Part shown: positions 9,741 through 49,355 of the stretch, piece by piece
Position numbering within the stretch: the stretch's first letter is position 1
Layout: each line of letters starts with the position of its first letter
DNA from: Burkholderiales bacterium
Lineage (GTDB): Bacteria > Pseudomonadota > Gammaproteobacteria > Burkholderiales > Burkholderiaceae_C
Direction: 5' to 3'
Assembly (NCBI GenBank): GCA_017307855.1
Contig: JAFKGD010000008.1
Location: 1-64,000, forward strand
Length of the DNA: 64,000 bases
The notes under the pieces: generated by a model
The model's input: only the letters and a program-made list of their open reading frames with translations
Database searches by the model: none
Told to the model about the DNA's origin: nothing
Translations under genes and position numbers: made by a program

Positions 9741-12700
9741 ATGCCCCACACCCGCCCCGAACTCGCCCCCGGCCTGATGGTGGTGCACGGCAACCACCCC
9801 GAGGCGCTGCGCGACGTGCTGGTGGCCTGGCTGGCCGCGCATCCGCTGGCGCCGCTGGAAGACGAGCACGTGCTGGTGCAGAGCAACGGCATCGCGCAGT
9901 GGCTGCGGCTGGCGCTGGCGCGCGACGTGGCCGACGGCGGCTGCGGCATCGCCGCCGCGTTGCAGATGCAGCTGCCGCAGCGATTCATCTGGCAGGCTTA
10001 TCGGGCTGTGCTGGGCGAAGATGCGGTGCCGGCCGAGTCACCATTCGACAAGCCCCTGCTGGTGTGGCGCCTCATGCGACTGCTGCCCGCGTTGCTGCAC
10101 GAAGACGTGTTCGCGCCGCTGCGCCGCTTCCTGGAGGGCGACGCCGATTGCCGCAAGCGGCACCAGCTGGCCGAGCGGCTGGCCGATCTGTTCGATCAGT
10201 ACCAGGTCTATCGCGCCGACTGGCTGCAGGCCTGGGCCGACGGCGACGACGTGCTGCGCACCAGCCGCCAGGGTGACGTGCCTGTACCCGACACGCTGCG
10301 CTGGCAGCCGCGCCTGTGGCGTGCCCTGCTGCAGGACGTGGGCCCGCATGCCCATGCCAGCCGCGCGCAGGTGCACCAGCGCTTCATGGCCGCCGCGCTC
10401 GCCGGCGATGCGGCGGCGCGGCCCGCCGGCCTGCCGCGGCGGCTGGTGGTGTTCGGCATCTCGTCGCTGCCGCAGCAGGCGCTCGAAGTGCTGGCCGCGC
10501 TGGCGCGCTGGACGCAGGTGCTCATGTGCGTGCACAACCCCTGCGAGCACGACTGGTCGCACATCGTGGCCGACCGCGATCTGCTGCGCGCCGACCGCCT
10601 GCGCCAGCGACGCCGCGCGGGCGGCGAGGGCGAGATTCCCGACCACGCCCTGCACCAGCACGCGCAGCCGCTGCTGGCGGCGTGGGGCAAGCAGGGCCGC
10701 GACTTCATCCGCCTGCTCGACAGCCACGACGAACGCGAGGCCTACGCGCAACGGCTGACGGCCATCGGCCAGCGTGTGGACTGTTTCGACCCCAACGCGG
10801 CCGACACGCTGCTGCGCCAGTTGCAGGACGACATCCGCGACCTGCGCCCGCTGGCCGAGACGCAGGCCACCTGGCCCGGCGTCGATGCCGCGCGCGACCC
10901 GTCGATCCGTTTCCACGTTGCGCACGGCCCGCAGCGCGAGGTGGAAGTGCTGCACGACCAGTTGCTGGCCGCCTTCGCCGCCGACCCCACGCTGCGCCCG
11001 CGCGACGTGATCGTTATGGTGCCCGACGTGGCCACCTATGCCGCGCACGTGCAGGCGGTGTTCGGCCTGCACCGCGCGCAGGACGCGCGCCACATCCCCT
11101 TCGCCATAGCCGATCAGGGCCAGCGGCACCACGATCCGCTGCTGGGCGCGGTGGAGCGCCTCCTGGGCTTGCCCGCATCGCGCCTGTCGGTGAGCGACGT
11201 GCTCGACAGCCTGGAAGTGCCCGCGCTGCGCGCGCGCTTTCGCATCGAGGAAGCGCAACTGCCGCTGCTGCAGCGCTGGATCGCCGCCGCCAACGTGCGC
11301 TGGGGCCTGCACGCGCGGCAGCGCGCGTCGCTCGGGCTACCCGACGGTCAGTCGCACAACAGCTGGGACTTCGGCCTGCAGCGCATGCTGCTGGGCTATG
11401 CCGTGGGCAGCGGCCAGGCCTGGGCCGACATCGAGCCGATGGACGAGATCGGCGGCCTCGATGCCGCGCTGCTCGGTCCGCTGGCCGACCTGCTGGCCGC
11501 GCTGCAGCGCCACTGGGAACAGCTCTCGGCGCGCGCCACGCCCGCGCAATGGGGTGTGCGCCTGGCCGCGCTGCTCGATGATTTCTTCCAGGCGCCCGAA
11601 GGCGCCGACGGCTTCACCTTGCTGCGGCTGCGGCAGTCCCTGCAGGACTGGGTGGCCGCCTGCGAAGCCGCCGGCTTCGACGAGGCGTTGCCGCTGTCGG
11701 TGGTGCGCGAGCACTGGCTGGCTCAGGCGGAGCCGGGCGGCCTGCAGCAGCCGTTCTTCGCCGGTGCCGTCACCTTCGCCACGCTGATGCCCATGCGCGC
11801 CATCCCGTTCCGCGTCGTGGCGCTGCTCGGCATGAACGACGGCGACTATCCGCGCAGCCGCACGCCGCTCGATTTCGACCTGATGGCACAGGATTGGCGC
11901 CCCGGCGACCGCTCGCGCCGCGAGGACGACCGCTACCTGTTCCTGGAAGCGCTGCTGTCCGCGCGCGACCACCTGCACGTCAGCTGGGTCGGCCGCAGCA
12001 TCCACGACCATTCCGAGAGGCCGCCCTCGGTGCTGGTGGCGCAGTTGCGCGACCACCTCGCGGCTGGCTGGCATCTGGCGGGCGACGAGGCACTGCCGGC
12101 GCACGAGGCCGGCGCGCGCTTGCTGGAGGCCCTCACCATCGAGCACCGGCTGCAGCCCTTTCATCCCGATTACTTCAGTGCCGGCGGCGATGCGCGCCTG
12201 TTCAGCCACGCGAGCGAATGGCTCGACGGCTTGCGCGCGGCCGGCGGGCCGGCGCAGGGCGGCGGCGAAGCCCTTGCGCCCACCGCCTGGGCTGGCCCGC
12301 TCACGCTGCGCACGCTGAGCGATTTCCTGCGCAACCCGGCGCAGTCGTTCTTCCGTCTGCGGCTGGGCATCCACTTCCAGCAGGGAGACGAGGCGGCCGA
12401 TGATGCCGAGCCCTTCGCGGTAGGCGGCCTGCAGAACTGGCGCCTGCAGGACGAGCTCATCCAGGCGCAGCAGGCGGTATTCGACGACATCGATGCCGCC
12501 GGCGACGGCGCGCGCGTTGCCGCGTTGGAGCACGCGCTGGCACGCATCGCCCGCCGTGGCGAGCTGCCGGCCGGAGCCTTCGGTGCGCTGGCGCAGGCCG
12601 GCCTCTCCGAACCGATGGAGCGCCTGTTCTCCGATTACGCGCAGGCGCTGGCCGAATGGCCGATGGCGCTGGCCGACGAGCCGCTCGATCACTTGCCCGA

Positions 12701-13298
12701 AGGCCTGGACGCATCGCTGCGCCTGGCCGACTGGCTGACCGGACTGCGCGCGCGTGCCGGCGACGGCGGCGCGGGCGCGCGCATGCGCCTCGTGCTCGAC
12801 AGCGGCAGCCTCATCGCACAGAAGCCCCGCACGAGCTACCGGCTCGACAGGATCGTGCCGTTCTGGATCGCCCACGTGGCGGGCCACCTCGACGGCCAGC
12901 CCTTCACCACGCTGGTGTTCAACAAGACCGGCCCGGTGCAGTTGCACCCGCTCGCGCGCGAAGCGGCGCGCGACTACTGGCGGCGCCTGCTCGACGCCTT
13001 CGTGCAGGGGCTTGCCCGGCCGCTGCCGCTGGCCGTGCGCGCAGGCGCGGCGTGGCTGGGCGCGCGCAACGCCGGCCAGAACGCAGCCACCGCCGCCGAA
13101 GCCGCGCGCGCCGCCTTCGAGGACCATGACCCCGCGCGTGGCCGCTGGGGCGAACGCGAGTCCAGCGCCGACCTGGCGCGCGCCTTCGTCGATTTCGCAT
13201 CGCTGGCCGAGGGCGGTGAATTCGAACACTGGGTGCAAACGCTGATCGCGCCGCTGGACGCGGCCATCGTGCGCGCGACGGCACGGGACGACGCATGA
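9741..13298 (+). CDS. recC: Exodeoxyribonuclease V gamma subunit RecC
   Basis: 1185 residues, close to the usual length (about 1120). The N-terminus (GLMVVHGNHPEALRDVLVAWLAAHPLAPLEDEHVLVQSNGIAQWL) is the standard RecC opening, and VMVPDVATYAAHVQAVFG and VALLGMNDGDYPRSRTPLDFDLMAQDWRPGDRSRREDDRYLFLEALLSA are conserved blocks. RecC is the Chi-scanning scaffold of RecBCD, a dead helicase without Walker motifs, acting with RecB and RecD on double-strand ends. It is the first gene of a recC-recB-recD operon; its TGA overlaps the recB ATG. Confidence 0.96.
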   Translation: MPHTRPELAPGLMVVHGNHPEALRDVLVAWLAAHPLAPLEDEHVLVQSNGIAQWLRLALARDVADGGCGIAAALQMQLPQRFIWQAYRAVLGEDAVPAESPFDKPLLVWRLMRLLPALLHEDVFAPLRRFLEGDADCRKRHQLAERLADLFDQYQVYRADWLQAWADGDDVLRTSRQGDVPVPDTLRWQPRLWRALLQDVGPHAHASRAQVHQRFMAAALAGDAAARPAGLPRRLVVFGISSLPQQALEVLAALARWTQVLMCVHNPCEHDWSHIVADRDLLRADRLRQRRRAGGEGEIPDHALHQHAQPLLAAWGKQGRDFIRLLDSHDEREAYAQRLTAIGQRVDCFDPNAADTLLRQLQDDIRDLRPLAETQATWPGVDAARDPSIRFHVAHGPQREVEVLHDQLLAAFAADPTLRPRDVIVMVPDVATYAAHVQAVFGLHRAQDARHIPFAIADQGQRHHDPLLGAVERLLGLPASRLSVSDVLDSLEVPALRARFRIEEAQLPLLQRWIAAANVRWGLHARQRASLGLPDGQSHNSWDFGLQRMLLGYAVGSGQAWADIEPMDEIGGLDAALLGPLADLLAALQRHWEQLSARATPAQWGVRLAALLDDFFQAPEGADGFTLLRLRQSLQDWVAACEAAGFDEALPLSVVREHWLAQAEPGGLQQPFFAGAVTFATLMPMRAIPFRVVALLGMNDGDYPRSRTPLDFDLMAQDWRPGDRSRREDDRYLFLEALLSARDHLHVSWVGRSIHDHSERPPSVLVAQLRDHLAAGWHLAGDEALPAHEAGARLLEALTIEHRLQPFHPDYFSAGGDARLFSHASEWLDGLRAAGGPAQGGGEALAPTAWAGPLTLRTLSDFLRNPAQSFFRLRLGIHFQQGDEAADDAEPFAVGGLQNWRLQDELIQAQQAVFDDIDAAGDGARVAALEHALARIARRGELPAGAFGALAQAGLSEPMERLFSDYAQALAEWPMALADEPLDHLPEGLDASLRLADWLTGLRARAGDGGAGARMRLVLDSGSLIAQKPRTSYRLDRIVPFWIAHVAGHLDGQPFTTLVFNKTGPVQLHPLAREAARDYWRRLLDAFVQGLARPLPLAVRAGAAWLGARNAGQNAATAAEAARAAFEDHDPARGRWGERESSADLARAFVDFASLAEGGEFEHWVQTLIAPLDAAIVRATARDDA

Positions 13299-16200
13299 CC
13301 AGAACCATGCGCCCCGAAGTGCTGCGCCCGCTGCGTTTCCCGCTGCGCGGCAGCCGCCTCATCGAAGCCAGCGCCGGCACCGGCAAGACCTTCACCATCG
13401 CCGCGCTCTATCTTCGGCTGGTGCTGGGCCATGGAGGCGATGCAGCCTTCGGCCGGCCGCTGTCTCCGCGCGACATCCTCGTCGTCACCTTCACCGAGGC
13501 CGCCACGCAGGAGCTGCGCGACCGCATCCGCGCGCGGCTGGCCGAAGCGGCCGACGTGTTCTCCGCCGACCCCGATGCGGTGCACGACGACGGCAACCTG
13601 CTGCATGCGCTGCGCGCCGACTACGCGCCCGATCGCTGGCCGGCCTGCGCACGCGCGTTGCGGCTGGCAGCCGAGGCCATGGACGAGGCCGCCGTCTCCA
13701 CCATCCACGGCTGGTGCAACCGCATGCTGCGCGAGCATGCCTTCGACAGCGGCGCGCTGTTCACGCAGACCCTCGAAGCTGATGCGGGCGACCTGTTCGC
13801 CGAGGCCGTGCGCGACTACTGGCGCAGCTTCTTCGCGCCGTTGCCGCTGGCGCAGGCGACTGCCGTGCGCGCCTGGTGGCCCGATCCGCAGGCGCTGGGC
13901 GCCACCGTGGGACGGCTGCTGCCGGTGCGCGATGCGCTCCCCGAAGGGCAGCCGCCGGGGCAGGCCCTGCGCGAGTCCATCGACGAGCGGGCGCGCGTGC
14001 TGGCCGCGCTGAAGGCGCCCTGGCGGGCCTGGGTGGCTGAACTGCAGGCCTGGCTCGACGACGCCGTCGCGAACAAGCAGGTGGATGCGCGCCGGCTGCA
14101 GCCGCGCTACTACCAGCCGTGGCTCGATGGCCTGCGCCAATGGGCCGAGGGCGATGCGCAGGAACCCTTCGATGGCAAGAGCACGGGCTGGATGCGCCTC
14201 ACGCCACAGGGCCTGGCCGAAGTGTGCAAGCCCGGCGTCACGCCACCCGACCATCCGGCGCTGAACGCCATGTGCAGCCTGCGCGCACAGATCGACGCCT
14301 TGCCCGATGGCCTGCAGCCGCTGCTGGCCCACGCCACCCGCTGGATCGCGGCGCGGCTGGCGGCCGAGCAGGCACGCCGCGCGCAGATGGGCTTCGACGA
14401 CCTGCTGGCGCAGCTCGACACCGCGCTGCGCGGCCCCAACGGCGAGCGGCTGGCGGCGCTGATCCGCCAGCAGTTCCCGGTGGCGCTGATCGACGAATTC
14501 CAGGACACCGATCCGCTGCAGTACCGCATCTTCGATGCCGTCTACCGCGTGGCGGACGACGACCCGCGCACGGCCGTGGTGCTGATCGGCGACCCCAAGC
14601 AGGCCATCTACGCCTTCCGCGGCGCCGACATCCACACCTACCTGGCCGCGCGTGCCGACACGCAGGGACGCCATGCCACGCTGGGCACCAATTTCCGGTC
14701 CAGCCAGCCGATGGTGGCGGCCGTGAACCACGTGTTCGCGCAGGCCGAGGCGCGCCCCGATGGCGCGGGCGCCTTCCTGTTCCGCGCGCCGGATGGCGAC
14801 AACCCGCTGCCGTTCTTCGCCGTGGACGCGAAAGGCCGTGCCGAGCACTGGCAGCGCAATGGCGCCCGGGTGCCCGCGCTCACCTGCTGGTTCCTCGAAG
14901 GTGAGGGCGACGCGGCCAGGCCGCCCGGCCGCGACGACGCGCAGCGCCGCCTGGCCGCCAGTTGCGCCACCGAGATCGTGGCGCTGCTGTCCGAATCTCA
15001 GCAGGGCCGCACCGGCTTCGCCGATGCCGCGGGTGCGCTGCGGCCCGTGACCACGGGCGACATCGCCGTGCTGGTGAACAACGGCGGCGAGGCGCGCGCG
15101 GTGCGCGAGGCGCTGGCCGCGCGCGGCGTGCGCAGCGTGTACCTGTCGGACAAGGGCTCGGTGTTCCAGAGCCCCGTGGCGCCCGACCTGCAGCGCTGGC
15201 TGGCCGCCTGCGCCGAGCCCGATGACGACCGGCTGCTGCGCGCGGCCCTGGGCACGGCCACGCTGGGCCTGTCGTGGGCCGAGCTCGACCGGCTCAATCA
15301 CGACGAACTGCATTGGGAAGACCGCGTGCTGCAGTTCCGCCGCTACCAGCAGATCTGGCGACGCCAGGGCGTGCTGCCCATGCTGCGCCATCTGCTGCAC
15401 GACTTCCGCGTGCCCACGCGGCTTCTGGCACAGGGCCAGGCCGGTGGCGAGCGCGCGCTGACCGACCTGCTGCACCTGGCCGAGCTGCTGCAGATCGAAA
15501 GTCATCAGATCGACGGCGAGCATGCGTTGCTGCGCCATCTGGCCGAAGCGCTGGCCGGGGACGGCGGCGACGCCGAGGCCCGCCGGTTGCGCCTGGAAAG
15601 CGATGCCGACCTCGTGAAGGTGGTCACGGTGCACAAATCCAAAGGACTCGAATACCCGCTGGTGTTCCTGCCGTTCGCCACGGCTTTCCGCCCGGCGCGT
15701 GCCGACGATCTGCCGCTCAAGTGGCACGACGACGCCGGCCACGCGCGCGTGTCGCTGGTGGCCGATGCCGACGCGCTGGCGCGCGCCGACCGCGAGCGCC
15801 TGGGCGAGGATTTGCGCAAGCTCTACGTCGCGCTCACGCGCGCACGCTTCGCCACCTGGATCGGCGCGGCGCCGCTGGTCGAGGTCGAACGCAGTGCGCT
15901 CGGATACCTGCTGGGCGGCGGCCAGCCGCTGTCGGCCACGGGCCTGCGCGATGCGCTGCGCGCCCTGGCGGACGGCGGCCCGCGCGGCGCCCTGGGCGTG
16001 CAACCGGCGCCCGAGCCTTCCGGCGAGATCTACCGCGCGGCCAACGCCGAGCCGCGCTGGCTGCCCGAGCCACCGCTACCGCAAGGCGTGCGCGAGCCCT
16101 GGTGGATCGCCAGTTACACCGCGTTGCGCGCGCGCGGCGACGGCCGCGTCATCGGCATCGACGAGGACGCCGTGGCCGATGGGCCGGCCGAAGCGCCAGG

Positions 16201-17104
16201 CGCCGCCGCCAGCGCCGCCGAGGACACCTATGCCGAAGAAAGCGCGCAGGCCGATACCGCCGCCGACGTCCTGCCGATAGACGACGATGCGCCCGCACGC
16301 GCCGCGCCGCCAGCGGGCCAGCTCGCGCTGCGACTCGATGCCGATGTGTCGTTGCACGGCTTTGCGCGCGGCGCCACGCCGGGCAGCTTTCTTCATGCGC
16401 TGCTCGAAGCGGCGGGCCGCGAAGGGTTCGCCCGCGCGCAGGCCGATGGCGCCGTGCGTGCGCGGCTGGACGAGCTGATCGATCGCGGCTGCCAGCAGGC
16501 CGGCTGGGACGAATGGGTGCCCGTGCTGCGCGACTGGCTGCAGGGTTGGCTGACCACGCCACTGCGGCTCGACGCGCTGGTGCCGGGCGCATCGCCGGTC
16601 GCCCCGGCGCAGTTGCAGGTCATGCAGGTAGAGATGGAATTCTGGCTGTCCGCCACGCGTGTGGATGCCGCCGCGCTCGACGCGCTCGTCTGCCGCCACA
16701 CGCTGGGCGGCGCGCCGCGCGCCGCGCTGGCACCGCAGCAGGTCAACGGCATGCTCAAGGGCTTCATCGACCTGGTGTTCGAACACGAGGGCCGCTACTA
16801 CGTGGCCGACTACAAATCCAACTGGATCGGCGGCGACGATGCGGCCTACACGCCCGAGGCGTTGCGCGTCGCCGTGCTGCACCACCGCTACGAGCTGCAG
16901 TACGTGCTCTACGTGTTCGCGCTGCATCGCCTGTTGCGTGCGCGCCTGCCGGGCTACGACTACGACCTGCACGTGGGCGGCGCGGTCTACCTGTTCCTGC
17001 GCGGCCATGCGGCGCCTGGGCAGGGCCTGCATCTGGAGCGTCCCCCGCGCGTGCTGATCGACGCGCTCGATGCGCTGTTCATGGGCGGAGGCGCCACGGC
17101 ATGA
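13295..17104 (+). CDS. recB: Exodeoxyribonuclease V beta subunit RecB
   Basis: 1269 residues. The UvrD-type helicase domain has Walker A at residues 25-32 (ASAGTGKT), FTEAATQELRDRIRARL, the Walker B block LIDEFQDTDPLQY, GDPKQAIYAFRGADIHTY and VVTVHKSKGLEYPLVFLP. The C-terminal nuclease domain has GFIDLVFEH and the catalytic VADYKSN motif (D1172, K1174). RecB is the 3'-5' motor and sole nuclease of RecBCD. A stretch at about 960-1005, between the two domains, is Ala/Glu/Asp-rich and probably the flexible tether. Its start overlaps the recC stop and its stop overlaps the recD start, each by 4 nt. Confidence 0.96.
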   Translation: MTRTMRPEVLRPLRFPLRGSRLIEASAGTGKTFTIAALYLRLVLGHGGDAAFGRPLSPRDILVVTFTEAATQELRDRIRARLAEAADVFSADPDAVHDDGNLLHALRADYAPDRWPACARALRLAAEAMDEAAVSTIHGWCNRMLREHAFDSGALFTQTLEADAGDLFAEAVRDYWRSFFAPLPLAQATAVRAWWPDPQALGATVGRLLPVRDALPEGQPPGQALRESIDERARVLAALKAPWRAWVAELQAWLDDAVANKQVDARRLQPRYYQPWLDGLRQWAEGDAQEPFDGKSTGWMRLTPQGLAEVCKPGVTPPDHPALNAMCSLRAQIDALPDGLQPLLAHATRWIAARLAAEQARRAQMGFDDLLAQLDTALRGPNGERLAALIRQQFPVALIDEFQDTDPLQYRIFDAVYRVADDDPRTAVVLIGDPKQAIYAFRGADIHTYLAARADTQGRHATLGTNFRSSQPMVAAVNHVFAQAEARPDGAGAFLFRAPDGDNPLPFFAVDAKGRAEHWQRNGARVPALTCWFLEGEGDAARPPGRDDAQRRLAASCATEIVALLSESQQGRTGFADAAGALRPVTTGDIAVLVNNGGEARAVREALAARGVRSVYLSDKGSVFQSPVAPDLQRWLAACAEPDDDRLLRAALGTATLGLSWAELDRLNHDELHWEDRVLQFRRYQQIWRRQGVLPMLRHLLHDFRVPTRLLAQGQAGGERALTDLLHLAELLQIESHQIDGEHALLRHLAEALAGDGGDAEARRLRLESDADLVKVVTVHKSKGLEYPLVFLPFATAFRPARADDLPLKWHDDAGHARVSLVADADALARADRERLGEDLRKLYVALTRARFATWIGAAPLVEVERSALGYLLGGGQPLSATGLRDALRALADGGPRGALGVQPAPEPSGEIYRAANAEPRWLPEPPLPQGVREPWWIASYTALRARGDGRVIGIDEDAVADGPAEAPGAAASAAEDTYAEESAQADTAADVLPIDDDAPARAAPPAGQLALRLDADVSLHGFARGATPGSFLHALLEAAGREGFARAQADGAVRARLDELIDRGCQQAGWDEWVPVLRDWLQGWLTTPLRLDALVPGASPVAPAQLQVMQVEMEFWLSATRVDAAALDALVCRHTLGGAPRAALAPQQVNGMLKGFIDLVFEHEGRYYVADYKSNWIGGDDAAYTPEALRVAVLHHRYELQYVLYVFALHRLLRARLPGYDYDLHVGGAVYLFLRGHAAPGQGLHLERPPRVLIDALDALFMGGGATA

Positions 17105-40436: not shown

Positions 40437-41132
40437 TCACGCCGCCGCAGGCTGCGGGATCAGCCGGATGCACGGCCAGCCACGGCCGCGCGCATGCAGC
40501 GTGAGGGCGGCATCCGCATTTGCCGCGACCGGTGTGGCGACGGCTTCGAGCAGCGGCAGGTCGTTGATCGAGTCGCTGTAGAACCACGCGCCGGCCATCA
40601 GCTGTTGGGGCCAGTGCCGCTCATCCAGCCAGGCCCGAAGTCGCGTGACCTTTCCCTCGCGCATGTTGGGCGTTCCCTCGATCTGGCCGGTGTAGCGGCC
40701 GTGGTGCAACTCCAGTTCGGTGGCGATCAGGTGCTCGACGCCCAGTTCGCGGGCCGTACGCTCGGCGATCACGCGATTGCTGGCAGTGGTGAGCACGACG
40801 GTGTGCCCCAGGCCACGGTGCCGAGAGACGATCGCACGCGCCGGGTCCGGCAGGCGCGGCCGGATGACGTCCGAGAGGAAGCGGTCCTGCCACGGCGCCC
40901 AGAAATCGGGCGTCTGCCCACCCAGCAGCGCCGCGTAGAACGCGCTGAATTCATGCACGCCGACGCGCCCGTCCCGGTAGTCCCGGCCCAGCTGGTCGTT
41001 ACGGAACGACAGCGCGGTATCGGCCAGGCCGTGCTGCACCAGGAAGCGGCACCAGAGATCGTCACCATCGCCATCGAGCAGCGTGTGGTCCAGGTCGAAG
41101 AGGGCCAGTGTCTGGGGAGTGGAAGGAGTCAT
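40437..41132 (-). CDS. HAD-IB family phosphatase (SerB-like)
   Basis: 231 residues from the ATG at 41132, which overlaps the eutC stop by 4 nt; the longer frame upstream is a shadow. Motif I is LFDLDHTLLDGDGDD, motif II TTASNRV, and motif III/IV FYSDSINDLPLLEAV. HAD-IB enzymes are phosphomonoesterases for small substrates such as phosphoserine. As the last gene of the gpdQ-like/eutB/eutC run it might act on glycerol 3-phosphate or phosphoethanolamine; that is inference from context only. Confidence 0.86.
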   Translation of the reverse strand: MTPSTPQTLALFDLDHTLLDGDGDDLWCRFLVQHGLADTALSFRNDQLGRDYRDGRVGVHEFSAFYAALLGGQTPDFWAPWQDRFLSDVIRPRLPDPARAIVSRHRGLGHTVVLTTASNRVIAERTARELGVEHLIATELELHHGRYTGQIEGTPNMREGKVTRLRAWLDERHWPQQLMAGAWFYSDSINDLPLLEAVATPVAANADAALTLHARGRGWPCIRLIPQPAAA

Positions 41133-41899
41133 GAGGAGAGCTTGTCGATGGCGCTGTGGTCCTTGAGCCCGATGCCCGAGAGGCCCAGTCGCAGTGATTC
41201 CCGCACCAGCCAGGCGAGACGGCGTCCGGCTGCTTCGGGCGGCAGGCCCTCGCCGCGGATGTTGCTGACGCAGTTGCGCTCGGCATCGGTGCGGCCCACG
41301 CGCGGTGCGTGCGTCAGGTAGGCGCCCAGGCTGTCGGCTGCGCTGAGCCCGGGCCGCTCGCCCAGCAGGATCAGCACCAGGCGCGCTCCGAGGGCATCGC
41401 CGATTTCGTCCGCCAGGGCGACGCGGGCCTGGGTGGCGATGACCGTGGGCCCCCAGGCCAGAGGTGGTTCTCCTGCGCGTGGCGCCAGCGCCTGTCGCAG
41501 CGATGCCAGCGCGGCCACCGCATGCGACTGGACGGCCAGCGCCGACAGACCATCGCCGATGACGACAGCCAGATCCACGCGCGCGCGGGGCAGGGCGGAC
41601 AGCATCTGCCGGCTGGGCTCGTCCAGTGCACGGCCGTGGTCGGGACGGCGCAGGTAATCCTGCCGCGACGACGCGCGGCTCTGCACGCACAGCACGGACT
41701 GGCCGTCGGCCTCCAGCGCGGCCCGCAGCGCCGGCACGTCGAGCGGCACGTGAACGGCGTCGCGTGCGCGGGCATGCGCGGCGGCGAAGCGCAGCAACTC
41801 GTGCGTGGGCAGGCTGGTGCCGCTGCGGCCCAGTGCGATGCGGGCCGGCGTATGGCGCCGCAGCGTCGCCCAGGGATCGGGGGCGACGGGCGCGCTCAT
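41129..41899 (-). CDS. eutC: Ethanolamine ammonia-lyase small subunit
   Basis: 256 residues from the ATG at 41899 (overlaps the eutB stop). Motifs include TPARIALGRSGTSLPTHELLRFAAAHARARDAVH, VIGDGLSALAVQSH, LILLGERPGLSAADSLGAYLTHAPRVG and ERNCVSNIRGEGL, all typical of EutC. With EutB it binds adenosylcobalamin and converts ethanolamine to acetaldehyde and ammonia. It is shorter than the enteric protein (about 295), as usual for species without the microcompartment operon. No other eut shell or reactivase gene is in the window. Confidence 0.94.
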   Translation of the reverse strand: MSAPVAPDPWATLRRHTPARIALGRSGTSLPTHELLRFAAAHARARDAVHVPLDVPALRAALEADGQSVLCVQSRASSRQDYLRRPDHGRALDEPSRQMLSALPRARVDLAVVIGDGLSALAVQSHAVAALASLRQALAPRAGEPPLAWGPTVIATQARVALADEIGDALGARLVLILLGERPGLSAADSLGAYLTHAPRVGRTDAERNCVSNIRGEGLPPEAAGRRLAWLVRESLRLGLSGIGLKDHSAIDKLSS

Positions 41900-43284
41900 T
41901 CCGACTCCAGCAAGGGGCTGAAGCGGCGCGCCAGCGCCGGCACATCGCGGGGCGCGCGCAGGGCGCCGTCGGCGTCCACCACACCCTGTGCCTGCAGCCA
42001 GGCTTCGAACTCGGGTGCGCGGCGCTTGCCGTGCAGGCGGCGCACGAAGAGCGCATCGTGGAACGACGTGCTCTGGTAGTTGAGCATCACGTCGTCCGCG
42101 CCGGGCACGCCCATCATGAAGTTCAGGCCGGCACTGGAGAGCAGCACCAGCAGGTTGTCCATGTCGTCCTGGTCGGCCTCCGCATGGTTGGTGTAGCAGA
42201 TGTCGCAGCCCATCGGCAGGCCCAGCAGCTTGCCGCAGAAGTGGTCTTCCAGCCCGGCTCGGATGATCTGCCTTCCGTCGTAGAGGTATTCCGGGCCGAT
42301 GAAGCCGACGACCGTGTTGACCAGCAGCGGACGGTGGCGCCGCGCGACCGCATAGGCCCGCGCCTCCAGCGTCTGCTGGTCCACGCCATGGTGCGCGCCC
42401 GCCGACAGCGCGCTGCCCTGGCCGGTCTCGAAGTACATGAGGTTGTCGCCCACGGTGCCGCGGCGCAGTTCGCGCGCGGCGGCGTGCACTTCGTCGAGCA
42501 GGGCCAGATCGATGCCGAAGCTCCGGTTGGCGGCCTCGGTGCCGGCGATGCTCTGGAACACCAGGTCCACCGGCGCGCCATGCCCCAGGGCCTGCATCGT
42601 GTTGGTGATGTGTGTGAGCACGCAGCATTGCGTGGGCACGGCATGGCGGTGCACGATGTCGTCGAACAGGTGCAGCAGGCGCACCAGATCGGGCACGCTG
42701 TCGCTCACCGGATTGACGCCGATGCACGCATCGCCCGCCCCATACATTAGACCGTCCAGCACGCTGGCCAGGATCCCGGCCGGATCGTCGGAAGGATGGT
42801 TGGGCTGCAGCCGCACGGCCAGGTGGCCTTTCAGGCCCAACGTGTTGCGAAAGCGCGTGACCACCTCGCAGCGGCTTGCCACCAGGATCAGATCCTGGTT
42901 GCGCATGAGCTTGCTCACCGCCGCCACCATCTCCGGCATGAGCCCCGGCGCCAGGGCCTGGAGCGCCTGCGTATCGGCGGCGTCGGAGAGCAGCCAGTCG
43001 CGGAAATCGCCGACGGTGAGGTGGGACACCGCGGCGAACGCGGCCGCGTCGTGGCTGTCGATGATCAGCCGCGTGACTTCATCGCTCTCGTAGGGCACCA
43101 CCGCCTCCTGCAGGAAGTGCCTGAGCGGCAAGGCCGCCAGCACTTCGCGGGCGGCGATGCGCCGCTGCTGGCTGTCCGCGGCCAGGCCTGCGAGCTCGTC
43201 GCCCGAACGGGCGGGCGACGCGCAGGCCAGCAGCTCGCGCAGATCCCCGAAACCATGCCGCTCGTGTCCGACCAGGGCTCGCAT
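41896..43284 (-). CDS. eutB: Ethanolamine ammonia-lyase large subunit
   Basis: 462 residues from the ATG at 43284 (TGATG junction with the phosphoesterase gene). The open frame continues upstream to 43506 only as a shadow. Recognisable blocks are LLACASPARSGDELAGLAA, LRNTLGLKG-like RFRNTLGLKGHLAVRLQPNHPSD, DACIGVNPVSD, HITNTMQALG, FQSIAGTEAANRSFGID, NLMYFETGQGSALSAGAHHG, GLPMGCDICYTNHAEADQDD and MMGVPGADDVMLNYQSTSFHD. It is the catalytic, B12-binding subunit that splits ethanolamine. It usually sits beside an ethanolamine permease; here a phosphodiesterase takes that place. Confidence 0.95.
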   Translation of the reverse strand: MRALVGHERHGFGDLRELLACASPARSGDELAGLAADSQQRRIAAREVLAALPLRHFLQEAVVPYESDEVTRLIIDSHDAAAFAAVSHLTVGDFRDWLLSDAADTQALQALAPGLMPEMVAAVSKLMRNQDLILVASRCEVVTRFRNTLGLKGHLAVRLQPNHPSDDPAGILASVLDGLMYGAGDACIGVNPVSDSVPDLVRLLHLFDDIVHRHAVPTQCCVLTHITNTMQALGHGAPVDLVFQSIAGTEAANRSFGIDLALLDEVHAAARELRRGTVGDNLMYFETGQGSALSAGAHHGVDQQTLEARAYAVARRHRPLLVNTVVGFIGPEYLYDGRQIIRAGLEDHFCGKLLGLPMGCDICYTNHAEADQDDMDNLLVLLSSAGLNFMMGVPGADDVMLNYQSTSFHDALFVRRLHGKRRAPEFEAWLQAQGVVDADGALRAPRDVPALARRFSPLLESE

Positions 43285-44099
43285 CACAGCGGTATCCCGC
43301 GTCCGAAATCGCCGACGTAGCTGGTGTGCGTGCACAGGCCGAGTGCTGCGCTCCAGCGGTGCAGGGATATCTTGGGTGGCTCCAGGCGGGCGCGCAATGG
43401 TGCCTCGGGCCGCAGGTCCAGCGCGATCTGGTGCGCGACGGACGGCGCGACGTGCAGCGGTGCGCCGCCGAAGCTCATCTGCACCGGCCGGTGCAAATGG
43501 CCGCACAGCAGGCCTTGCACCTGGCCGTAGCCGCGCACCAGCGCGGCCAGCCTGTCACCGCCTTCCAGCAGGCTGCAGGCGTCCATGGCCTCGATCCCGG
43601 TGGGCAAGGGGGGGTGGTGCATGAACAGCAGGACGGGCTGGTCGTGGCATCGGGCGAGCGTCCTCTCGAGCCAGTCGAGTTGCGGCGAGTCCAGCGCACC
43701 GTGCGGGCGACCGGGCACGACGGTATCCAGGGCGATCAGCTGCAGGCCGGCGTGCTGCACGTGATAGCAGCAGGTCTGTGCTGGTGCATCCGCTCGCACC
43801 GGCATGCACGCAGGCAGGGCATCGCGCGCCACGCTGGGGTGGTCGTGGTTGCCGGGGACGGCGTACACGGGCATCGGCAGCGAGGCCAGCGCCTGGGCGA
43901 TGGCCTCGTATTCAGCGGCATGACCGCGTTCGGCGAGATCCCCGGTGAACAGCACGAGATCGGGCAGGGGATCCAGGCACGCCACATGCGCTACGGCCCG
44001 GTGCAGGGCGGCCAGGGTGTCGAGGCGGCCTTCCAGCACGTCGAGCGCCATGCCGACGTGGCTGTCGGACAGCTGGGCAATCAGGAGCGGCATGGTCAT
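43284..44099 (-). CDS. GpdQ-like glycerophosphodiesterase (calcineurin-type metallophosphoesterase)
   Basis: 271 residues, the length of GpdQ (274). All binuclear metal ligands can be placed: D12 and H14 in QLSDSHVG, D54 in FTGDLAE, N84 in PGNHDHP, H161 in MHHPPLPTG, and H201/H203 in CGHLHRP. The HHPPLPxG...MD segment and the spacing match GpdQ, which hydrolyses glycerophosphodiesters, glycerophosphoethanolamine among them; a cyclic-nucleotide (CpdA-like) role is a less likely alternative. There is no signal peptide, so the substrate must be imported. It is the first gene of an operon with eutB, eutC and the HAD phosphatase, and divergent from a Ugp-like importer. Confidence 0.85.
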   Translation of the reverse strand: MTMPLLIAQLSDSHVGMALDVLEGRLDTLAALHRAVAHVACLDPLPDLVLFTGDLAERGHAAEYEAIAQALASLPMPVYAVPGNHDHPSVARDALPACMPVRADAPAQTCCYHVQHAGLQLIALDTVVPGRPHGALDSPQLDWLERTLARCHDQPVLLFMHHPPLPTGIEAMDACSLLEGGDRLAALVRGYGQVQGLLCGHLHRPVQMSFGGAPLHVAPSVAHQIALDLRPEAPLRARLEPPKISLHRWSAALGLCTHTSYVGDFGRGIPL

Positions 44100-44261
44100 G
44101 GTGTGGCAGTTTAGTCCTTAAATCCACATGAATCCAAAAAATAATGTGGAACAAGAATTGCATGTGTGGAATTCATATGGTTGTCATGTGGGAAATGCAG
44201 CATTCGGCACGTCTGCTGTCCTGCAAACATTTCTTCGTCCCCTGTTCTTAGGAGCCTCGAC
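44100..44261. promoter_or_regulatory. AT-rich divergent control region with a phased ATGTGGA motif array
   Basis: The 162 nt between the phosphodiesterase and importer genes are much richer in A+T than the flanks. Four copies of one motif are seen: TCCACAT (44123-44129, inverted), ATGTGGA (44144-44150), ATGTGTGGA (44162-44170) and ATGTGGGA (44186-44193). Their centres are about 21 bp apart, so they face the same side of the helix. The DeoR-type protein encoded at the far end of the plus-strand operon is the most likely ligand, by inference. Confidence 0.6.
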
Positions 44262-45563
44262 ATGTCCCGTTCCGCTTCCGCTTCCACGCCCCGCCGCCAG
44301 TTCCTCCAGCGCAGTGCCAGTGTTTCGGCCGCTGCCCTGTTCGGCGGCATGCCGCTGTTCGCTTCGGGCCAGCAACAGGTCAAGCTGGCCTTCATGTATC
44401 CGGTCGGGGTGTCCGGCGACATCAACCGCCTGGTCAGCACCATGATTGCCGGCTTCAATGCGGCGCACACCAACATCCAGGTGGAGGCCATCTACGCCGG
44501 CAGCTACGACAACACCGAACAGAAGGTGATGACCGCGCTGGGCGTGGGCGATCCGCCGGCCTCGTGGCTGCCCATCAACTCCATGCTAACCACCTTCCTG
44601 GGCATGGACGCGCTGGAAGACGTCACCGCGCTGGCCCGCGCCGACGACATCTATCAGGACTTCCTGCCCGGTTTTCTGGGCACGTGCATTTCCGACAACA
44701 AGCTCTATGGCCTGCCGTTCCAGTGCAGCACGCCGGTGCTGTACTACAACAAGGCTGCCTTCGAGAAAGCCGGCGCCAGGCCACCCACGACCTGGTCCGA
44801 ACTCGAGGCCGCCGCGAAGGCGCTCACCGTGCGCCAGGGCGACACCGTCTCGCAATGGGGCCTGACCATCGGTGGCGGCTGGCACGACTGGATCTTCGAG
44901 AGCTTCGTGCGCCAGAACGGCCTGGTGTTCTGGAACAAGGACAAAGTGATGTTCGACGCACCCGAGAGCCTGAATGCGATGGAATTCTGGGTGCGCATGG
45001 CGCAGGCCAAGCTGATGCCGGCCGCTTCCACCTGGGAAAGCTCGGCCAACGACTTCATGGCCGGCCGCACGGCCATGCTCTACCACTCCACGGGCTCGAT
45101 GACCAACATCCTCAAGTCCTCCTCGTTCCCGGTCGGCGTGGTGCCCATGCCGCGCGGCAAGCAACTGGGCTCGACCATGGGCGGAGGCCCCATCCTCATC
45201 GCGAAGAAGCAGCCCGACGCGCACAAGCGCGCCGCCTGGACTTTCGCGCGCTGGATGACCAACACCGCCAACCAGGCGCAGTGGTGCGTGGACACCGGCT
45301 ACCTGGCCGCGCGCAAGTCGTCGTGGGAGACGCCGGTGCTCAAGGCCCACGTGGCCAAGCTGCCGGAATCGCGCGCCGCCTTCGTGACGGCCGAAGTCGC
45401 CGGTGCCTTCCTGCAGGTGCCGGGCTACCACAAGGTGCGCTCGTTCCTGCAGAGCGCCATCGACCGCTCGCTGGCCGGCGAGATCAAGCCCGACGCCGCG
45501 CTGCGCGAAGCCAACGCCAAGGCCAATCTCGAGATCCAGCGCGTCTCGCGCCGCCGCGGCTGA
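44262..45563 (+). CDS. UgpB-like ABC transporter solute-binding protein
   Basis: 433 residues from the ATG at 44262 with AGGAG 7 nt upstream; the longer frame lies in the control region. A Tat-type signal (PRRQFLQRSASVSAAALFGG) directs export. It belongs to the carbohydrate-uptake-1 binding family, and several stretches resemble UgpB of E. coli: NYE-like YAGSYDNTEQ, PFQCSTPVLYYNKAAFEKAG, FMAGRTAMLYHSTGSMTNI, GGGPILI and DTGYLAARKS. UgpB binds glycerol 3-phosphate and glycerophosphodiesters, which fits the GpdQ-like gene opposite. A glutamate of the UgpB pocket is not obvious here (LPINSM in its place), so specificity may differ. Confidence 0.82.
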   Translation: MSRSASASTPRRQFLQRSASVSAAALFGGMPLFASGQQQVKLAFMYPVGVSGDINRLVSTMIAGFNAAHTNIQVEAIYAGSYDNTEQKVMTALGVGDPPASWLPINSMLTTFLGMDALEDVTALARADDIYQDFLPGFLGTCISDNKLYGLPFQCSTPVLYYNKAAFEKAGARPPTTWSELEAAAKALTVRQGDTVSQWGLTIGGGWHDWIFESFVRQNGLVFWNKDKVMFDAPESLNAMEFWVRMAQAKLMPAASTWESSANDFMAGRTAMLYHSTGSMTNILKSSSFPVGVVPMPRGKQLGSTMGGGPILIAKKQPDAHKRAAWTFARWMTNTANQAQWCVDTGYLAARKSSWETPVLKAHVAKLPESRAAFVTAEVAGAFLQVPGYHKVRSFLQSAIDRSLAGEIKPDAALREANAKANLEIQRVSRRRG

Positions 45564-45567
45564 GCCC

Positions 45568-46512
45568 ATGACGACCACGCTGGCTGATTCCCGGATGGCC
45601 GCCCACGCCGTGCCCGACCGCACGGTGCGCAGCCAGCGGCGGCGCGAGGCCCTCACTGCCCTGGTGATGCTCGCACCGTCGCTGGTGTTCCTGGCCGCGT
45701 TCACCTACTGGCCCATCGCGCGTTCGCTGGCCTACGGTTTCTTCGACGTGCAGCTCGGCTCGTCCGAGATCTTCTTCACCGGATGGGACAACTACCTGCG
45801 CCTGTGGCATGACGAGCTGTTCTGGAAGTCGCTGCGCAACACCGTGCTCTACATGGTGATCACCGTGCCGTCTTCCATCGGCCTGGCGCTGCTGCTGGCC
45901 GTGGCGCTGGACCGCAAGCTGCGCGGCACGGCGCTCTACCGTTCCACCTTCTTCTACCCGGTGATGGTGCCGTCGGTGGCTGCCGGCATGGTGTGGGTGT
46001 TCCTGTATGCGCCGGGCTACGGGCCCATCAACGGACTGATGAACTGGCTGGGCCTGCCCAGGCTGGAATGGCTGTACGACAGCACCTGGGCGCTGCCGGC
46101 CATCATCTTCATGAGCATCTGGAAGTACGCGGGCTACTTCATGCTCATCCTGCTGGCCGCGCTGCAACTGGTGCCGCGCGACCTGTACGAGGCCGCGCGG
46201 CTGGACGGCGTGTCGGGCTTCCGGCAGCTGGTGCACATCACGGTGCCGTTGATCTCGCCCACGCTGTACTTCGTGGTGGTGATCGGCGTGCTGCACTCCT
46301 ACCAGATCTTCGACTACGTGTTCGTGATGACGCAGGGCGGCCCGGCCGACGCGACCAACGTGCTCACCTTCTACATCTACCAGAACGCCTTCCAATTCCA
46401 GGACATCGGCACCGCTTCGGCCATCGCCACCATCCTGCTGCTGGTGGTGGGCGTGCTGATCGGCATCGTGGCCCTCACGCTGGGCCGGCGCGTGCATTAC
46501 CTGGGGCGATGA
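45568..46512 (+). CDS. ABC transporter permease, UgpA/MalF type
   Basis: 314 residues from the ATG at 45568, 4 nt after the binding-protein stop. Six membrane segments are predicted and the cytoplasmic EAA loop reads YEAARLDGVSGFRQLVHITVPLISPT, the docking site for the ATPase. The first 35 residues are a polar extension before segment one (ALVMLAPSLVFLAAFTYWPI). It forms the translocation channel with the next permease. Its TGA overlaps the next ATG. Confidence 0.93.
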   Translation: MTTTLADSRMAAHAVPDRTVRSQRRREALTALVMLAPSLVFLAAFTYWPIARSLAYGFFDVQLGSSEIFFTGWDNYLRLWHDELFWKSLRNTVLYMVITVPSSIGLALLLAVALDRKLRGTALYRSTFFYPVMVPSVAAGMVWVFLYAPGYGPINGLMNWLGLPRLEWLYDSTWALPAIIFMSIWKYAGYFMLILLAALQLVPRDLYEAARLDGVSGFRQLVHITVPLISPTLYFVVVIGVLHSYQIFDYVFVMTQGGPADATNVLTFYIYQNAFQFQDIGTASAIATILLLVVGVLIGIVALTLGRRVHYLGR

Positions 46513-47405
46513 ACATGCTGAAGAACCAGGATCCCCATGCCCCCCGAGGGGGAAGCTTTTCATCTTGGGGCGGCCCGGCGATGAAGATGCTTTTCGGCCG
46601 TTCACGCTGGATGCAGTGGCTGCTGGTGCCGGCGGTGCTGCTCTGGCTCAGCCCGTTGGCGTGGATGCTGCTCACCTCGTTCAAGACGCGGGCCGAGATC
46701 TTCGATCCGGCCGCGGGGGTGCTGCCGCAGGCGCTGCAGTGGGGCAACTATCCGGCGGCGCTGGCGGTGGCGCCGTTCGGCACCTACCTGCTCAATTCGA
46801 TCCTGGTCACCGGCGGCATCCTGCTGGCGCAGATGACCACGATCACGCTGGCGGCGTATGCCTTCGCGCGGCTGCGCTTCCCGGGGCGCGACGTGCTGTT
46901 CGGGCTGTTCCTGCTGCAGGTGATGTTTCCCATCTACGCGACCTTCCTCACCAACTTCATCACGGTGCGCGAGCTGGGCCTGCTCAACAGCCTGTGGGCG
47001 CTGATGGTGCCCTTCATCGCCAGCGGCTACGGCACCTTCATGCTGCGCCAGGCCTTCCGTCAGGTGCCGAACGATCTGGCCGATGCGGCCCGGCTGGACG
47101 GCTGCGGCCACTGGGCCACGCTCTGGCATGTCTACCTGCCGCTGGTCAAGCCCACGCTGGTCGCGTTCGGCATGATTTCCGTGGTCACGCACTGGAACGA
47201 CTACATGTGGCCGCTGCTGGTCACCAACAGCGAAGGCGTGCGCACGCTGCCGATCGGGCTTGGCCTGCTGGCCAAGGCCGACAGCGGCGCCGACTGGCCG
47301 CGCCTGATGGCCGCCACCATGGTCGTCATCTCCCCGCTCCTGCTGCTGTTCGTGATCTTCCAGCGCCGCTTCGTCGACAGCTTCATGCACGCCGGGCTCA
47401 AGTAG
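46509..47405 (+). CDS. ABC transporter permease, UgpE/MalG type
   Basis: 298 residues from the ATG at 46509 (ATGA overlap). The family core begins near MKMLFGRSRWMQWLLVPAVLLWL, and the EAA loop is ADAARLDGCGHWATLWHVYLPLVKPT, with about six membrane segments. The first 24 residues (NMLKNQDPHAPRGGSFSSWGGPA) have no counterpart in such permeases and are encoded by a G/C-rich repeat-like stretch, so translation either passes through it or starts at the ATG at 46581. Confidence 0.92.
   Translation: MNMLKNQDPHAPRGGSFSSWGGPAMKMLFGRSRWMQWLLVPAVLLWLSPLAWMLLTSFKTRAEIFDPAAGVLPQALQWGNYPAALAVAPFGTYLLNSILVTGGILLAQMTTITLAAYAFARLRFPGRDVLFGLFLLQVMFPIYATFLTNFITVRELGLLNSLWALMVPFIASGYGTFMLRQAFRQVPNDLADAARLDGCGHWATLWHVYLPLVKPTLVAFGMISVVTHWNDYMWPLLVTNSEGVRTLPIGLGLLAKADSGADWPRLMAATMVVISPLLLLFVIFQRRFVDSFMHAGLK
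46540..46582 (+). repeat. Repeat-like insert at the 5' end of the second permease gene
   Basis: CCCCC-GA-GGGGG (46541-46552) is followed by TTGGGGCGGCCCGGCG (46565-46580). The same elements, a C-run/G-run hairpin then GCGGCCCGGCGGAGCCGG, occur in the intergenic repeat at 62649-62688. The similarity, by eye, suggests a partial copy lodged at the junction of two overlapping genes, keeping the frame open. Confidence 0.5.
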
Positions 47406-47441
47406 GCCGTCCCCTCATTCTTCCAACCCACCCTCCAAGCT

Positions 47442-48527
47442 ATGGCTGCCATTTCCCTCCAGGGCATCTGCAAGCGTTATCGCGACCACACGGCCGTCCA
47501 TCACCTGAACCTCGAAGTCCAGGCGGGCGAATTCATGGTGCTCGTCGGTCCTTCGGGCTGCGGCAAATCGACCACGCTGCGCATGATCGCGGGGCTGGAG
47601 GACATCACCGAAGGCAAGCTCGTCATTGGCGGCAAGGACGTCACGCACGCCGAGCCGCACGAGCGCGACATCGCGATGGTGTTCCAGTCGTACGCGCTCT
47701 ATCCGCACATGACGGTGCAGATGAACATGTCGTTCGGCCTGCTGCGCGCCAGCCGTCTGCCGCGCGCCGAGATCGAAGCGCGCGTGCACGACGCGGCCGA
47801 ACGCCTGCGCATCACCGATCTGCTGCAGCGCCGGCCCAACGAGCTCTCGGGCGGACAGCGCCAGCGCGTGGCCATCGGCCGCGCGCTCGTGCGCAAGCCC
47901 AAGGTCTTCCTGTTCGACGAACCGCTGTCCAATCTGGATGCCAAGCTGCGCACGCACATGCGCGGCGAGCTGGAGCGACTGCACCACGAACTGGGCATCA
48001 CCATCGTCTACGTGACGCACGACCAGGTCGAAGCCATGACGCTGGGCACGCGCATCGCGGTCATGGACGGCGGCCGCCTGCAGCAGGCCGGCGCACCCAT
48101 GGACATCTACCGCGCACCGGCCACGCGCTTCGTCGCATCGTTCATCGGCTCGCCCGAGATGAATTTCCTGCCCGTGCCGGCCGGCGACGGCACAGGCCGT
48201 GCCTGGCTCGCGCAACGCTTCGATGCCAGCGCGCTGCAGGGCAGCGCCGTGCTGGGCCTGCGTCCGGAGGAGCTCGCGCTGGCAGTGGACTGCACGACAC
48301 CGGCCAGCTCGCCGCTGGTCTGGCGCGGCGTGGTCCAGCGCATCGAGCGTCTGGGCGCCGAAGCCTACGCGCAGGTGCGGCTGCAGGATGCGGAGCGCGC
48401 CGTGCTGGTGCGCACCGCGCCCGACATCGCGATCGAAGTAGGCCAGGACGCCCTCCTGTCGGCGGACGTCACGCGGCTGCGCATGTTCGATGGCCCAAGC
48501 GGTGTCGCGGTGCCGGCGCACGCCTGA
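47442..48527 (+). CDS. ABC transporter ATP-binding protein, UgpC/MalK type
   Basis: 361 residues. Walker A is LVGPSGCGKSTTLRMIAGLE, the Q loop VFQSYALYPHMTV, the signature NELSGGQRQRVAIGRAL, Walker B VFLFDEPLSNLDAKLR, and the H loop VYVTHDQVEAMTLG. A C-terminal TOBE/OB regulatory domain starts near residue 240 (LGLRPEELALAVD). It powers the importer made with the preceding two permeases. The gap to the permease is 36 nt, with no terminator. Confidence 0.93.
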   Translation: MAAISLQGICKRYRDHTAVHHLNLEVQAGEFMVLVGPSGCGKSTTLRMIAGLEDITEGKLVIGGKDVTHAEPHERDIAMVFQSYALYPHMTVQMNMSFGLLRASRLPRAEIEARVHDAAERLRITDLLQRRPNELSGGQRQRVAIGRALVRKPKVFLFDEPLSNLDAKLRTHMRGELERLHHELGITIVYVTHDQVEAMTLGTRIAVMDGGRLQQAGAPMDIYRAPATRFVASFIGSPEMNFLPVPAGDGTGRAWLAQRFDASALQGSAVLGLRPEELALAVDCTTPASSPLVWRGVVQRIERLGAEAYAQVRLQDAERAVLVRTAPDIAIEVGQDALLSADVTRLRMFDGPSGVAVPAHA

Positions 48528-48578
48528 GGGCCGGGCAGCGCTCGTGGACAATCGCGCAGAACCCGAGGAGATCCATCC

Positions 48579-49355
48579 ATGAGCATCACGCCGGTGCTGA
48601 GCGCGCGCCAGGAGCGCATCGTCGAGATCCTGCGCAGCACGCCGTCCATCACCACGATCGAGCTCGCGCAGCGGCTGGCCGTGTCGGGCGAAACCGTGCG
48701 CCGCGACCTGCAGGCGCTGGCCGACGATGGCATCGTGCAGAAGTTCCATGGCGGCGTGAGCCTGCACCGCGATGTGCAGGAATCGCCCTTCCAGCTTCGT
48801 CTGCGCAGCAACGTGGCCGCCAAGCGCCGGCTGGCGCAGCAGGTGTCGGCCCTGCTGCCCGATGGCGCCAGCGTGGTGCTGGACAACAGCAGCACGGCCT
48901 GCTTCGTGGCCGAGGCGCTGGCCGAGCGTCGCGGCCTCACGGTCGCCACGCCGTCGCTGGAAGTCGCGCGGGCACTGGCGCAAAGCGGCGACCGCCACAC
49001 CGTGCTGCTGCCCGGTGGCACGCTGCGCAGCAGCGACATGACCCTGGCCGGCGCGAACGCGTTGCGCTTCGCGTCGCAGCTGCATCCGGATTTCTTTGTC
49101 GCCTCTGTCGCCTCGCTGAGCGCCCGCGGTGGCTGCCTCGATTTCGACCCGTTCGAGGTGGAGTTCAAGCAGACCGTCGCGCCCCATGCCGGCACGGTGA
49201 TCGTCGTGGCCGATGCGAGCAAGTTCGGCGCGCCGGGCCTCATCACCAGCCTGTCGTGGGAGCAGCCGCAGATCCTGGTGGTCGACCAGCCGCTGCCCGA
49301 CGAGCTCTCCCGCGCGACGCAGGGCCTGCGGGTGGTGGTCGCCGCCGCGGATTGA
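48579..49355 (+). CDS. DeoR family transcriptional regulator
   Basis: 258 residues: an N-terminal winged helix (RQERIVEILRSTPSITTIELAQRLAVSGETVRRDLQALADDGIVQKFHGGV) and a C-terminal sugar-phosphate-sensing DeoRC domain (SNVAAKRRLAQQVSALLPDGASVVLDNSSTACFVAEAL). GAGGAG precedes the ATG. Members such as GlpR respond to phosphorylated metabolites, glycerol 3-phosphate for GlpR itself. As last gene of the importer operon it probably regulates both divergent operons through the motifs at 44123-44193. Confidence 0.9.
   Translation: MSITPVLSARQERIVEILRSTPSITTIELAQRLAVSGETVRRDLQALADDGIVQKFHGGVSLHRDVQESPFQLRLRSNVAAKRRLAQQVSALLPDGASVVLDNSSTACFVAEALAERRGLTVATPSLEVARALAQSGDRHTVLLPGGTLRSSDMTLAGANALRFASQLHPDFFVASVASLSARGGCLDFDPFEVEFKQTVAPHAGTVIVVADASKFGAPGLITSLSWEQPQILVVDQPLPDELSRATQGLRVVVAAAD

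Follow-up and report, generated by a model that had tools for sequence, protein, structure and literature searches.

A candidate phosphodiester scavenging cluster with a UgpB-like importer, a GpdQ-like esterase and a eutBC extension in a Burkholderiales bacterium

Described systems and the layout of the locus

The Ugp uptake system of Escherichia coli is encoded by ugpBAECQ, with UgpQ as its glycerophosphodiester phosphodiesterase (GDPD). A short eut operon, combining an acetaldehyde dehydrogenase, an ethanolamine transporter and the ethanolamine ammonia-lyase EutBC, is described for Pseudomonas aeruginosa in the accessible portion of PMC5821096. A route leading from glycerophosphoethanolamine through ethanolamine to EutBC is stated for Fusobacterium nucleatum (accessible portion of PMC4234264) and figures in the reaction list of an E. 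coli model (accessible portion of PMC2390508), and the release of ethanolamine from glycerophosphoethanolamine is discussed in the accessible text of PMC6529630. Here we analyze a gene cluster in a 64,000-nucleotide stretch of DNA (hereafter the window; positions 1 to 64,000 of contig JAFKGD010000008.1, assembly GCA_017307855.1) from a Burkholderiales bacterium with a genome of 4.99 Mb. We consider it fairly likely that this cluster encodes a system, under DeoR control, for scavenging the remnants of phospholipid headgroups, with a eutBC extension that would draw ethanolamine from glycerophosphoethanolamine.

An earlier note on this DNA had described a minus-strand operon of esterase, eutB, eutC and phosphatase genes, divergent from genes for a binding protein, two permeases, an ATPase and a DeoR-type regulator. 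All nine genes were recovered where it had placed them, and profile searches matched their families:

40437..41132, minus strand: HAD-IB phosphatase, 231 residues (Pfam HAD 137 bits, cut-off 27)
41129..41899, minus strand: eutC, ethanolamine ammonia-lyase small subunit, 256 residues (NCBIfam 313 bits, cut-off 230); 4-nucleotide overlaps with the HAD gene and with eutB
41896..43284, minus strand: eutB, ethanolamine ammonia-lyase large subunit, 462 residues (NCBIfam 709 bits, cut-off 554; Pfam 719, cut-off 25); 1-nucleotide overlap with the esterase gene
43284..44099, minus strand: GpdQ-like metallophosphoesterase (MPE), 271 residues, proposed glycerophosphodiesterase (Metallophos 70 bits, cut-off 21.5)
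44100..44261, no strand: divergent promoter region with repeated TGTGG-type boxes, proposed DeoR operator (motif count against shuffles)
44262..45563, plus strand: UgpB-like substrate-binding protein, 433 residues (SBP_bac_8 162 bits; UgpB model 105 bits, cut-off 411; nearest structures UgpB)
45568..46512, plus strand: UgpA-like CUT1 permease, 314 residues (BPD_transp_1 62 bits; best model UgpA, 143 bits, under its cut-off of 335)
46581..47405, plus strand: UgpE-like CUT1 permease, 274 residues (BPD_transp_1 74 bits; best model UgpE, 135 bits, under its cut-off of 297)
47442..48527, plus strand: ATP-binding cassette (ABC) ATPase of the UgpC subfamily, 361 residues (NF008653 434.9 bits, cut-off 432)
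48579..49355, plus strand: DeoR/GlpR-family regulator, 258 residues (DeoRC 124 bits, cut-off 31.8; HTH_DeoR 57; best GlpR-type model 134, under its cut-off of 331)

The tight minus-strand junctions noted earlier, with overlaps of 1 and 4 nucleotides, measure 1, 4 and 4 nucleotides with the starts chosen here; for eutB the ATG at 43284 was taken, with a GTG at 43287 as the alternative, and the start codons of both permease genes are likewise our choice. The window shares with the Ugp system a CUT1 importer, a UgpB-like binding protein, a UgpC-subfamily ATPase and a phosphodiesterase gene alongside. It differs in that the phosphodiesterase is a GpdQ-like metalloenzyme rather than UgpQ, a DeoR regulator and a phosphatase are added, a Glu of the binding pocket is replaced by Asn, eutBC is present in a few loci, and the cut-offs of the UgpB, UgpA and UgpE models are not reached. 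With the short eut operon, as given in the accessible portion of its source, the window has in common an EutBC without microcompartment genes, but its operon has an esterase, a phosphatase and an importer in place of a permease or dehydrogenase. The F. nucleatum and E. coli model routes embody the same chemical idea, although no dedicated importer-esterase-eutBC operon is given in the accessible portions of PMC4234264 and PMC2390508. Among the matches listed in our literature search, outside which most subscription papers lie, no title or abstract opening describes this operon.

Conservation of the importer, esterase and regulator

A species-wide scan, in which the binding proteins of the window and of a second genome (G151) served as queries and two short peptide patterns were used, so that relatives can be missed, yielded 40 loci at 57-89% identity. 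These come from records titled as beta- and alphaproteobacteria, with one (L139) from Marinicella; the single locus retrieved as both L084 and L115 was counted once. In 32 of the 40 loci, which span two classes of Proteobacteria, the esterase and binding-protein genes are arranged divergently. The two permease genes and the ATPase gene lie behind the binding-protein gene in 39 (the exception, L143, lacks the full importer set because its contig ends there), and the DeoR gene is found in 38. This recurrence suggests that importer, esterase and regulator constitute one old unit, to which eutBC is an addition. The earlier note had held that a failure of the two divergent operons to co-occur in related genomes would speak against its proposal; they do co-occur in those 32 loci, and on this linkage we rejected the idea that they are chance neighbors. 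The alphaproteobacterial form is also carried by a Martelella plasmid, where it is annotated as phosphodiesterase, ABC transporter, DeoR/GlpR regulator and histidinol-phosphatase; 21 plasmid records have an esterase match and two a binding-protein match. When neighboring genes were clustered using a crude composition-based gene finder, the other recurrent groups (in at least three loci, among the matches listed) were general families, reverse-strand shadows or gene runs common to three near-identical loci.

By both sequence and fold, the nearest solved structures of the binding protein are those of UgpB, among them M. tuberculosis UgpB bound to glycerophosphocholine (6r1b), with dinucleotide-binding proteins also among the near folds. 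The accessible portion of PMC12718374 lists the Tyr and Ser pairs that hold the phosphate in UgpB along with its Trp clamp. With these positions mapped by eye from alignments, Y82 (or Y78), S156, W207, W210 and S279 are kept in all 41 binding proteins and Y347 in 40, with one gap. The residues that hold the glycerol hydroxyls in UgpB, a Glu, Gly and Arg, give a mixed picture: the Glu is replaced by Asn106 in 41 of 41, Gly307-309 are kept in 41, and R393 is found in 40 of the 41, an assignment made by eye outside the aligned part. The ATPase just reaches the cut-off of its subfamily; the binding protein falls well short of that for the UgpB equivalog.

The nearest solved structure of the esterase appears to be GpdQ, to which it is about 28% identical. 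With GpdQ of Enterobacter aerogenes (3d03, 2zo9, 2dxl) it shares fold, length and metal-ligand positions; it differs in that its relatives are encoded divergently from an importer. The columns invariant among 30 aligned esterase sequences include D12, H14, D54, N84, H161, H162, H201 and H203, which, as aligned to GpdQ, we take to have the metal-ligand roles of that enzyme. The GpdQ ligand set attributed to the esterase in the earlier note is borne out by alignment, and the HHPPLPxG motif is present as HHPPLPTG. Cyclic-nucleotide phosphodiesterase models also match the protein, at 106-120 bits. In the Marinicella locus (L139, 8821-9701) the esterase is split over two frames, through either gene decay or an assembly error.

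In the divergent region (44100-44261) a TGTGG-type motif, picked by eye before counting, gives eight overlapping hits at five sites as against 0.59 in dinucleotide shuffles, with none of 1000 shuffles reaching eight. Similar TGTGG-type boxes were seen by eye in the divergent regions of related Burkholderiales, and TTTCAACA-like repeats in those of some other loci. A common operator in these regions is a plausible candidate.

Capture of eutBC and the phosphatase slot

The identity of EutBC and its two captures are established at the level of sequence. EutB and EutC both exceed their curated cut-offs, as listed above, and beyond the window EutB is found in two of the 40 loci, L111 and L143. L111 has the same junction overlaps as the window (1, 4 and 4 nucleotides), and while 19 of the 41 cluster genomes have EutB, those of the window and L111 have no EutB match besides the copy in the cluster. 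In a tree of all 31 EutB hits plus the window, the window and L111 sequences are sisters (100/98) among betaproteobacterial ones, while that of L143 falls among alphaproteobacterial ones, alongside another EutB encoded in the L143 genome. The latter placement is also supported in a larger tree (rows aligned over 380 residues or fewer and three duplicate loci excluded; 130 rows, 123 after identical ones were dropped). These placements indicate that eutBC joined this esterase on no fewer than two occasions, one in the betaproteobacteria and the other in the alphaproteobacteria. A single capture spreading with the cluster was rejected by an approximately unbiased (AU) test against one clade (p 2e-99, a value that is not clean, because the group was defined with the first tree already in view). 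The branching order among 11 Burkholderiales binding proteins is not resolved by their tree, so it is the EutB trees that support one capture common to L111 and the window.

Among 249 genomes of the order to which G524 belongs, EutB is present in 64, at 67 places, and 65 of these were examined (the fragments G662:C246 and G628:C325 being left out). An MPE lies directly upstream of EutB at two, namely in G536, the genome of L143, and in G558, whose EutB is 95% identical to that of L143 and which has no such importer in the 20 kb analyzed there. Esterase-eutBC adjacency is thus seen in four genomes of two lineages in total. As a rough estimate rather than a test, random placement of EutB (about 4500 genes, either strand) would give about 0.002 adjacencies in 19 genomes, against an observed three that stem from two captures. 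Among 160 sampled genomes of the family, 44 have an EutB match, that of the window included, and the 43 other EutB neighborhoods (5-20 kb, some cut by contig ends) contain no MPE match at E 1e-5; judged by this sample, an esterase beside eutB is rare and the operon of the earlier note seemed unique. Certain further features of eut loci were observed. In L143 (537-1275) eutC is split over two frames, either by gene decay or by an assembly error. In L178 (G011:C3:45500-53100) an aminotransferase, by eye like 2-aminoethylphosphonate transaminase, precedes eutBC, a possible further link between eutBC and a phosphorus compound. In L247, L248, L253, L255, L256 and L258, from the order of G524, about 1.8 kb separates eutB from eutC, so that something is inserted there.

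A phosphomonoesterase from one of two unrelated families lies beside the cluster in 18 of the 40 loci: the HAD-IB phosphatase in ten (eight from Burkholderiales and two from Azoarcus) and, in eight alphaproteobacterial loci, a protein of the inositol-phosphatase type adjoining the DeoR gene. Phosphatase models were run on the window HAD, on the HADs of four of the ten loci and on five of the eight inositol-phosphatase-type proteins, and for both families the nearest models were histidinol-phosphatases. The five inositol-phosphatase-type proteins pass their model (279-287 bits, cut-off 275). The window HAD scores 225 bits on HolPasePseu, under the cut-off of 280, within a range of 209-242 for the cluster HADs scanned. 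The window genome has a second HAD copy elsewhere, 42% identical, with 279.7 bits on HolPasePseu, just under the cut-off; given this higher score, we rejected the idea that the window HAD serves the genome as its histidinol-phosphatase. A search of 12 genomes with the window HAD found a cluster-type copy (the one in the window, or one 61-68% identical to it) in nine and at least one distant copy (38-45% identical) in all 12. We propose that the window HAD is a cluster-specific paralog related to histidinol-phosphatase, with a putative role in dephosphorylating the monoester left after cleavage. One of the two HADs of L118 passes the histidinol-phosphatase cut-off and is encoded on the opposite strand, and may therefore represent the housekeeping gene. 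The Burkholderiales loci L109 and L115 (genomes G502 and G508) lack both the esterase and the cluster HAD and their genomes have the distant copy only; in L114 the HAD is present and the esterase absent. In Burkholderiales the HAD keeps company with the esterase also where eutBC is missing, and seven loci without eutBC have it (L107, L108, L110, L112, L113, L114 and L116); it therefore does not belong to the ethanolamine step proper.

Proposed function, alternatives and distant relatives

We infer the substrates, products, phosphatase role and regulation as follows. Homology and pocket residues suggest that the CUT1 importer and its UgpB-like binding protein would take up glycerophosphodiesters. 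The intracellular GpdQ-like dinuclear phosphodiesterase would cleave these diesters, glycerophosphoethanolamine yielding ethanolamine and glycerol 3-phosphate. A dedicated phosphomonoesterase, of the HAD-IB type in betaproteobacteria and the inositol-phosphatase type in several alphaproteobacteria, may then strip the last phosphate. Where eutBC lies directly behind the esterase gene, in the window lineage and one alphaproteobacterial lineage, ethanolamine made inside the cell would be converted to acetaldehyde and ammonia. The DeoR protein is predicted to control both divergent operons and to sense a phosphorylated intermediate. The outline of the pathway in the earlier note remains plausible, given that UgpB and GpdQ are the nearest structures, that eutBC was captured twice and that the window genome has its sole EutB here; what did not survive is eutBC as a core component. 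As eutBC is present in only two of the 40 relatives, the importer, which had been assigned to glycerophosphoethanolamine, is better read as one for glycerophosphodiesters, or for phosphodiesters more widely, and is probably not specific for ethanolamine.

We also lean, by a narrower measure, towards a broader statement: that a previously undescribed phosphodiester scavenging system of UgpB-like importer, GpdQ-like esterase, interchangeable phosphatase and DeoR regulator, spread across alpha- and betaproteobacteria, has on at least two occasions captured eutBC and so become a supply line for ethanolamine, with no need for an ethanolamine permease. Should this hold, genes now annotated as sugar transporter, phosphodiesterase, DeoR/GlpR regulator and histidinol-phosphatase would form a lipid-headgroup scavenging system, through which phosphate, glycerol, carbon and nitrogen could come from one headgroup remnant. 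It would further reveal a way in which some bacteria could supply EutBC while lacking an ethanolamine permease, and related loci would gain a testable function. The two unrelated phosphatases in one pathway slot offer a handle for finding the substrate of that slot.

Several observations weigh against these proposals. Since eutBC is absent beside 38 of the 40 relatives, it was rejected as a core component. In the family sample, where 33 of the 160 genomes have an esterase match at E 1e-30, no esterase relative other than that of the window adjoins eutB, and most adjoin other ABC ATPases or none of these genes. The earlier note had pointed to the missing ethanolamine permease as a sign of internal supply. 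No such permease was identified: the model TIGR00908 has no match over its cut-off in the window genome (best 69 against 382 bits), none in the operon and none over the cut-off in the L111 genome. This is consistent with internal supply; however, TIGR00908 exceeds its cut-off in just two of 20 EutB-bearing genomes searched (G053 and G500, beside EutB), and because the other 18 also lack such a match the absence is weak evidence and was rejected as a strong one.

The pocket itself, in which Asn in place of Glu sets the binding protein apart from UgpB, is a further point against glycerophosphodiesters, and it favors a core that imports another phosphodiester, such as glycerophosphoinositol, glycerophosphoglycerol or a dinucleotide, with the co-transcribed eutBC serving ethanolamine from elsewhere. 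The 38 clusters without adjoining eutBC, the inositol-phosphatase-type protein beside DeoR in eight alphaproteobacterial loci and the dinucleotide-binding proteins among the near folds point the same way. Nevertheless, we regard this as improbable, since the placement of eutBC directly behind the esterase in two lineages is difficult to account for unless an ethanolamine step is shared. About equally doubtful is a cleavage of the same imported substrate in the opposite sense, whereby the esterase would release phosphoethanolamine and glycerol and the phosphatase would free ethanolamine for EutBC. Both phosphatase families are nearest to histidinol-phosphatase models, and histidinol phosphate is, like phosphoethanolamine, the phosphate of an amino alcohol, but the phosphatases are present also where eutBC is absent, and GpdQ and other glycerophosphodiesterases are described as releasing glycerol 3-phosphate (accessible portion of PMC4926365). 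Finally, the cluster might merely juxtapose a sugar importer with its own DeoR regulator, a cyclic-nucleotide phosphodiesterase and an ordinary eutBC pair inserted beside them. CUT1 importers carry mostly sugars, the esterase matches cyclic-nucleotide phosphodiesterase models, and its relatives in the family sample neighbor ABC transporters of several other types, or have none of these genes nearby. Against this stand the esterase-importer pairing kept in 32 of 40 loci, the retained phosphate-binding positions of UgpB and the UgpB and GpdQ folds nearest to the two proteins, in light of which we hold such an assortment to be very unlikely indeed. The glycerophosphodiester scavenging system with its eutBC extension is accordingly the reading we retain.

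Closer to the window, a binding-protein match at E 1e-80 was found only in the window itself among 349 genomes of its order, while esterase matches at E 1e-58 occur in 17 of these, at 18 places. At E 1e-40, 15 of the 160 family genomes have a binding-protein match, close only in the window genome and G151 and 31-36% identical in the others. The G151 protein (87%) is accompanied by the permeases, ATPase and DeoR, without esterase or eutBC. This genome has another esterase-importer pair in a second cluster, L062 (G151:C1:422700-442600, about 9524-15295), where an esterase (42%) is divergent from DeoR, ATPase, binding-protein (33%) and permease genes. Esterase relatives also lie beside ABC ATPases of other types, 39-53% identical to that of the window (L054, L055, L056, L059, L060, L064, L065 and others), which suggests that this family of esterases is associated with several importers. 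L051 (G014:C9:37800-57700, 9583-16239) is a further remote variant of the gene set: genes for an esterase (36%), a binding protein, two permeases, an ATPase and a protein that by eye is HAD-like follow one another, and DeoR is divergent. Behind the Ugp-like importers of L085, L088 and L090, whose binding proteins are 32-34% identical, comes a protein that by eye resembles the endonuclease/exonuclease/phosphatase family (12432-13313, 6986-7855 and 6943-7875, respectively), a third kind of phosphoesterase beside such importers.

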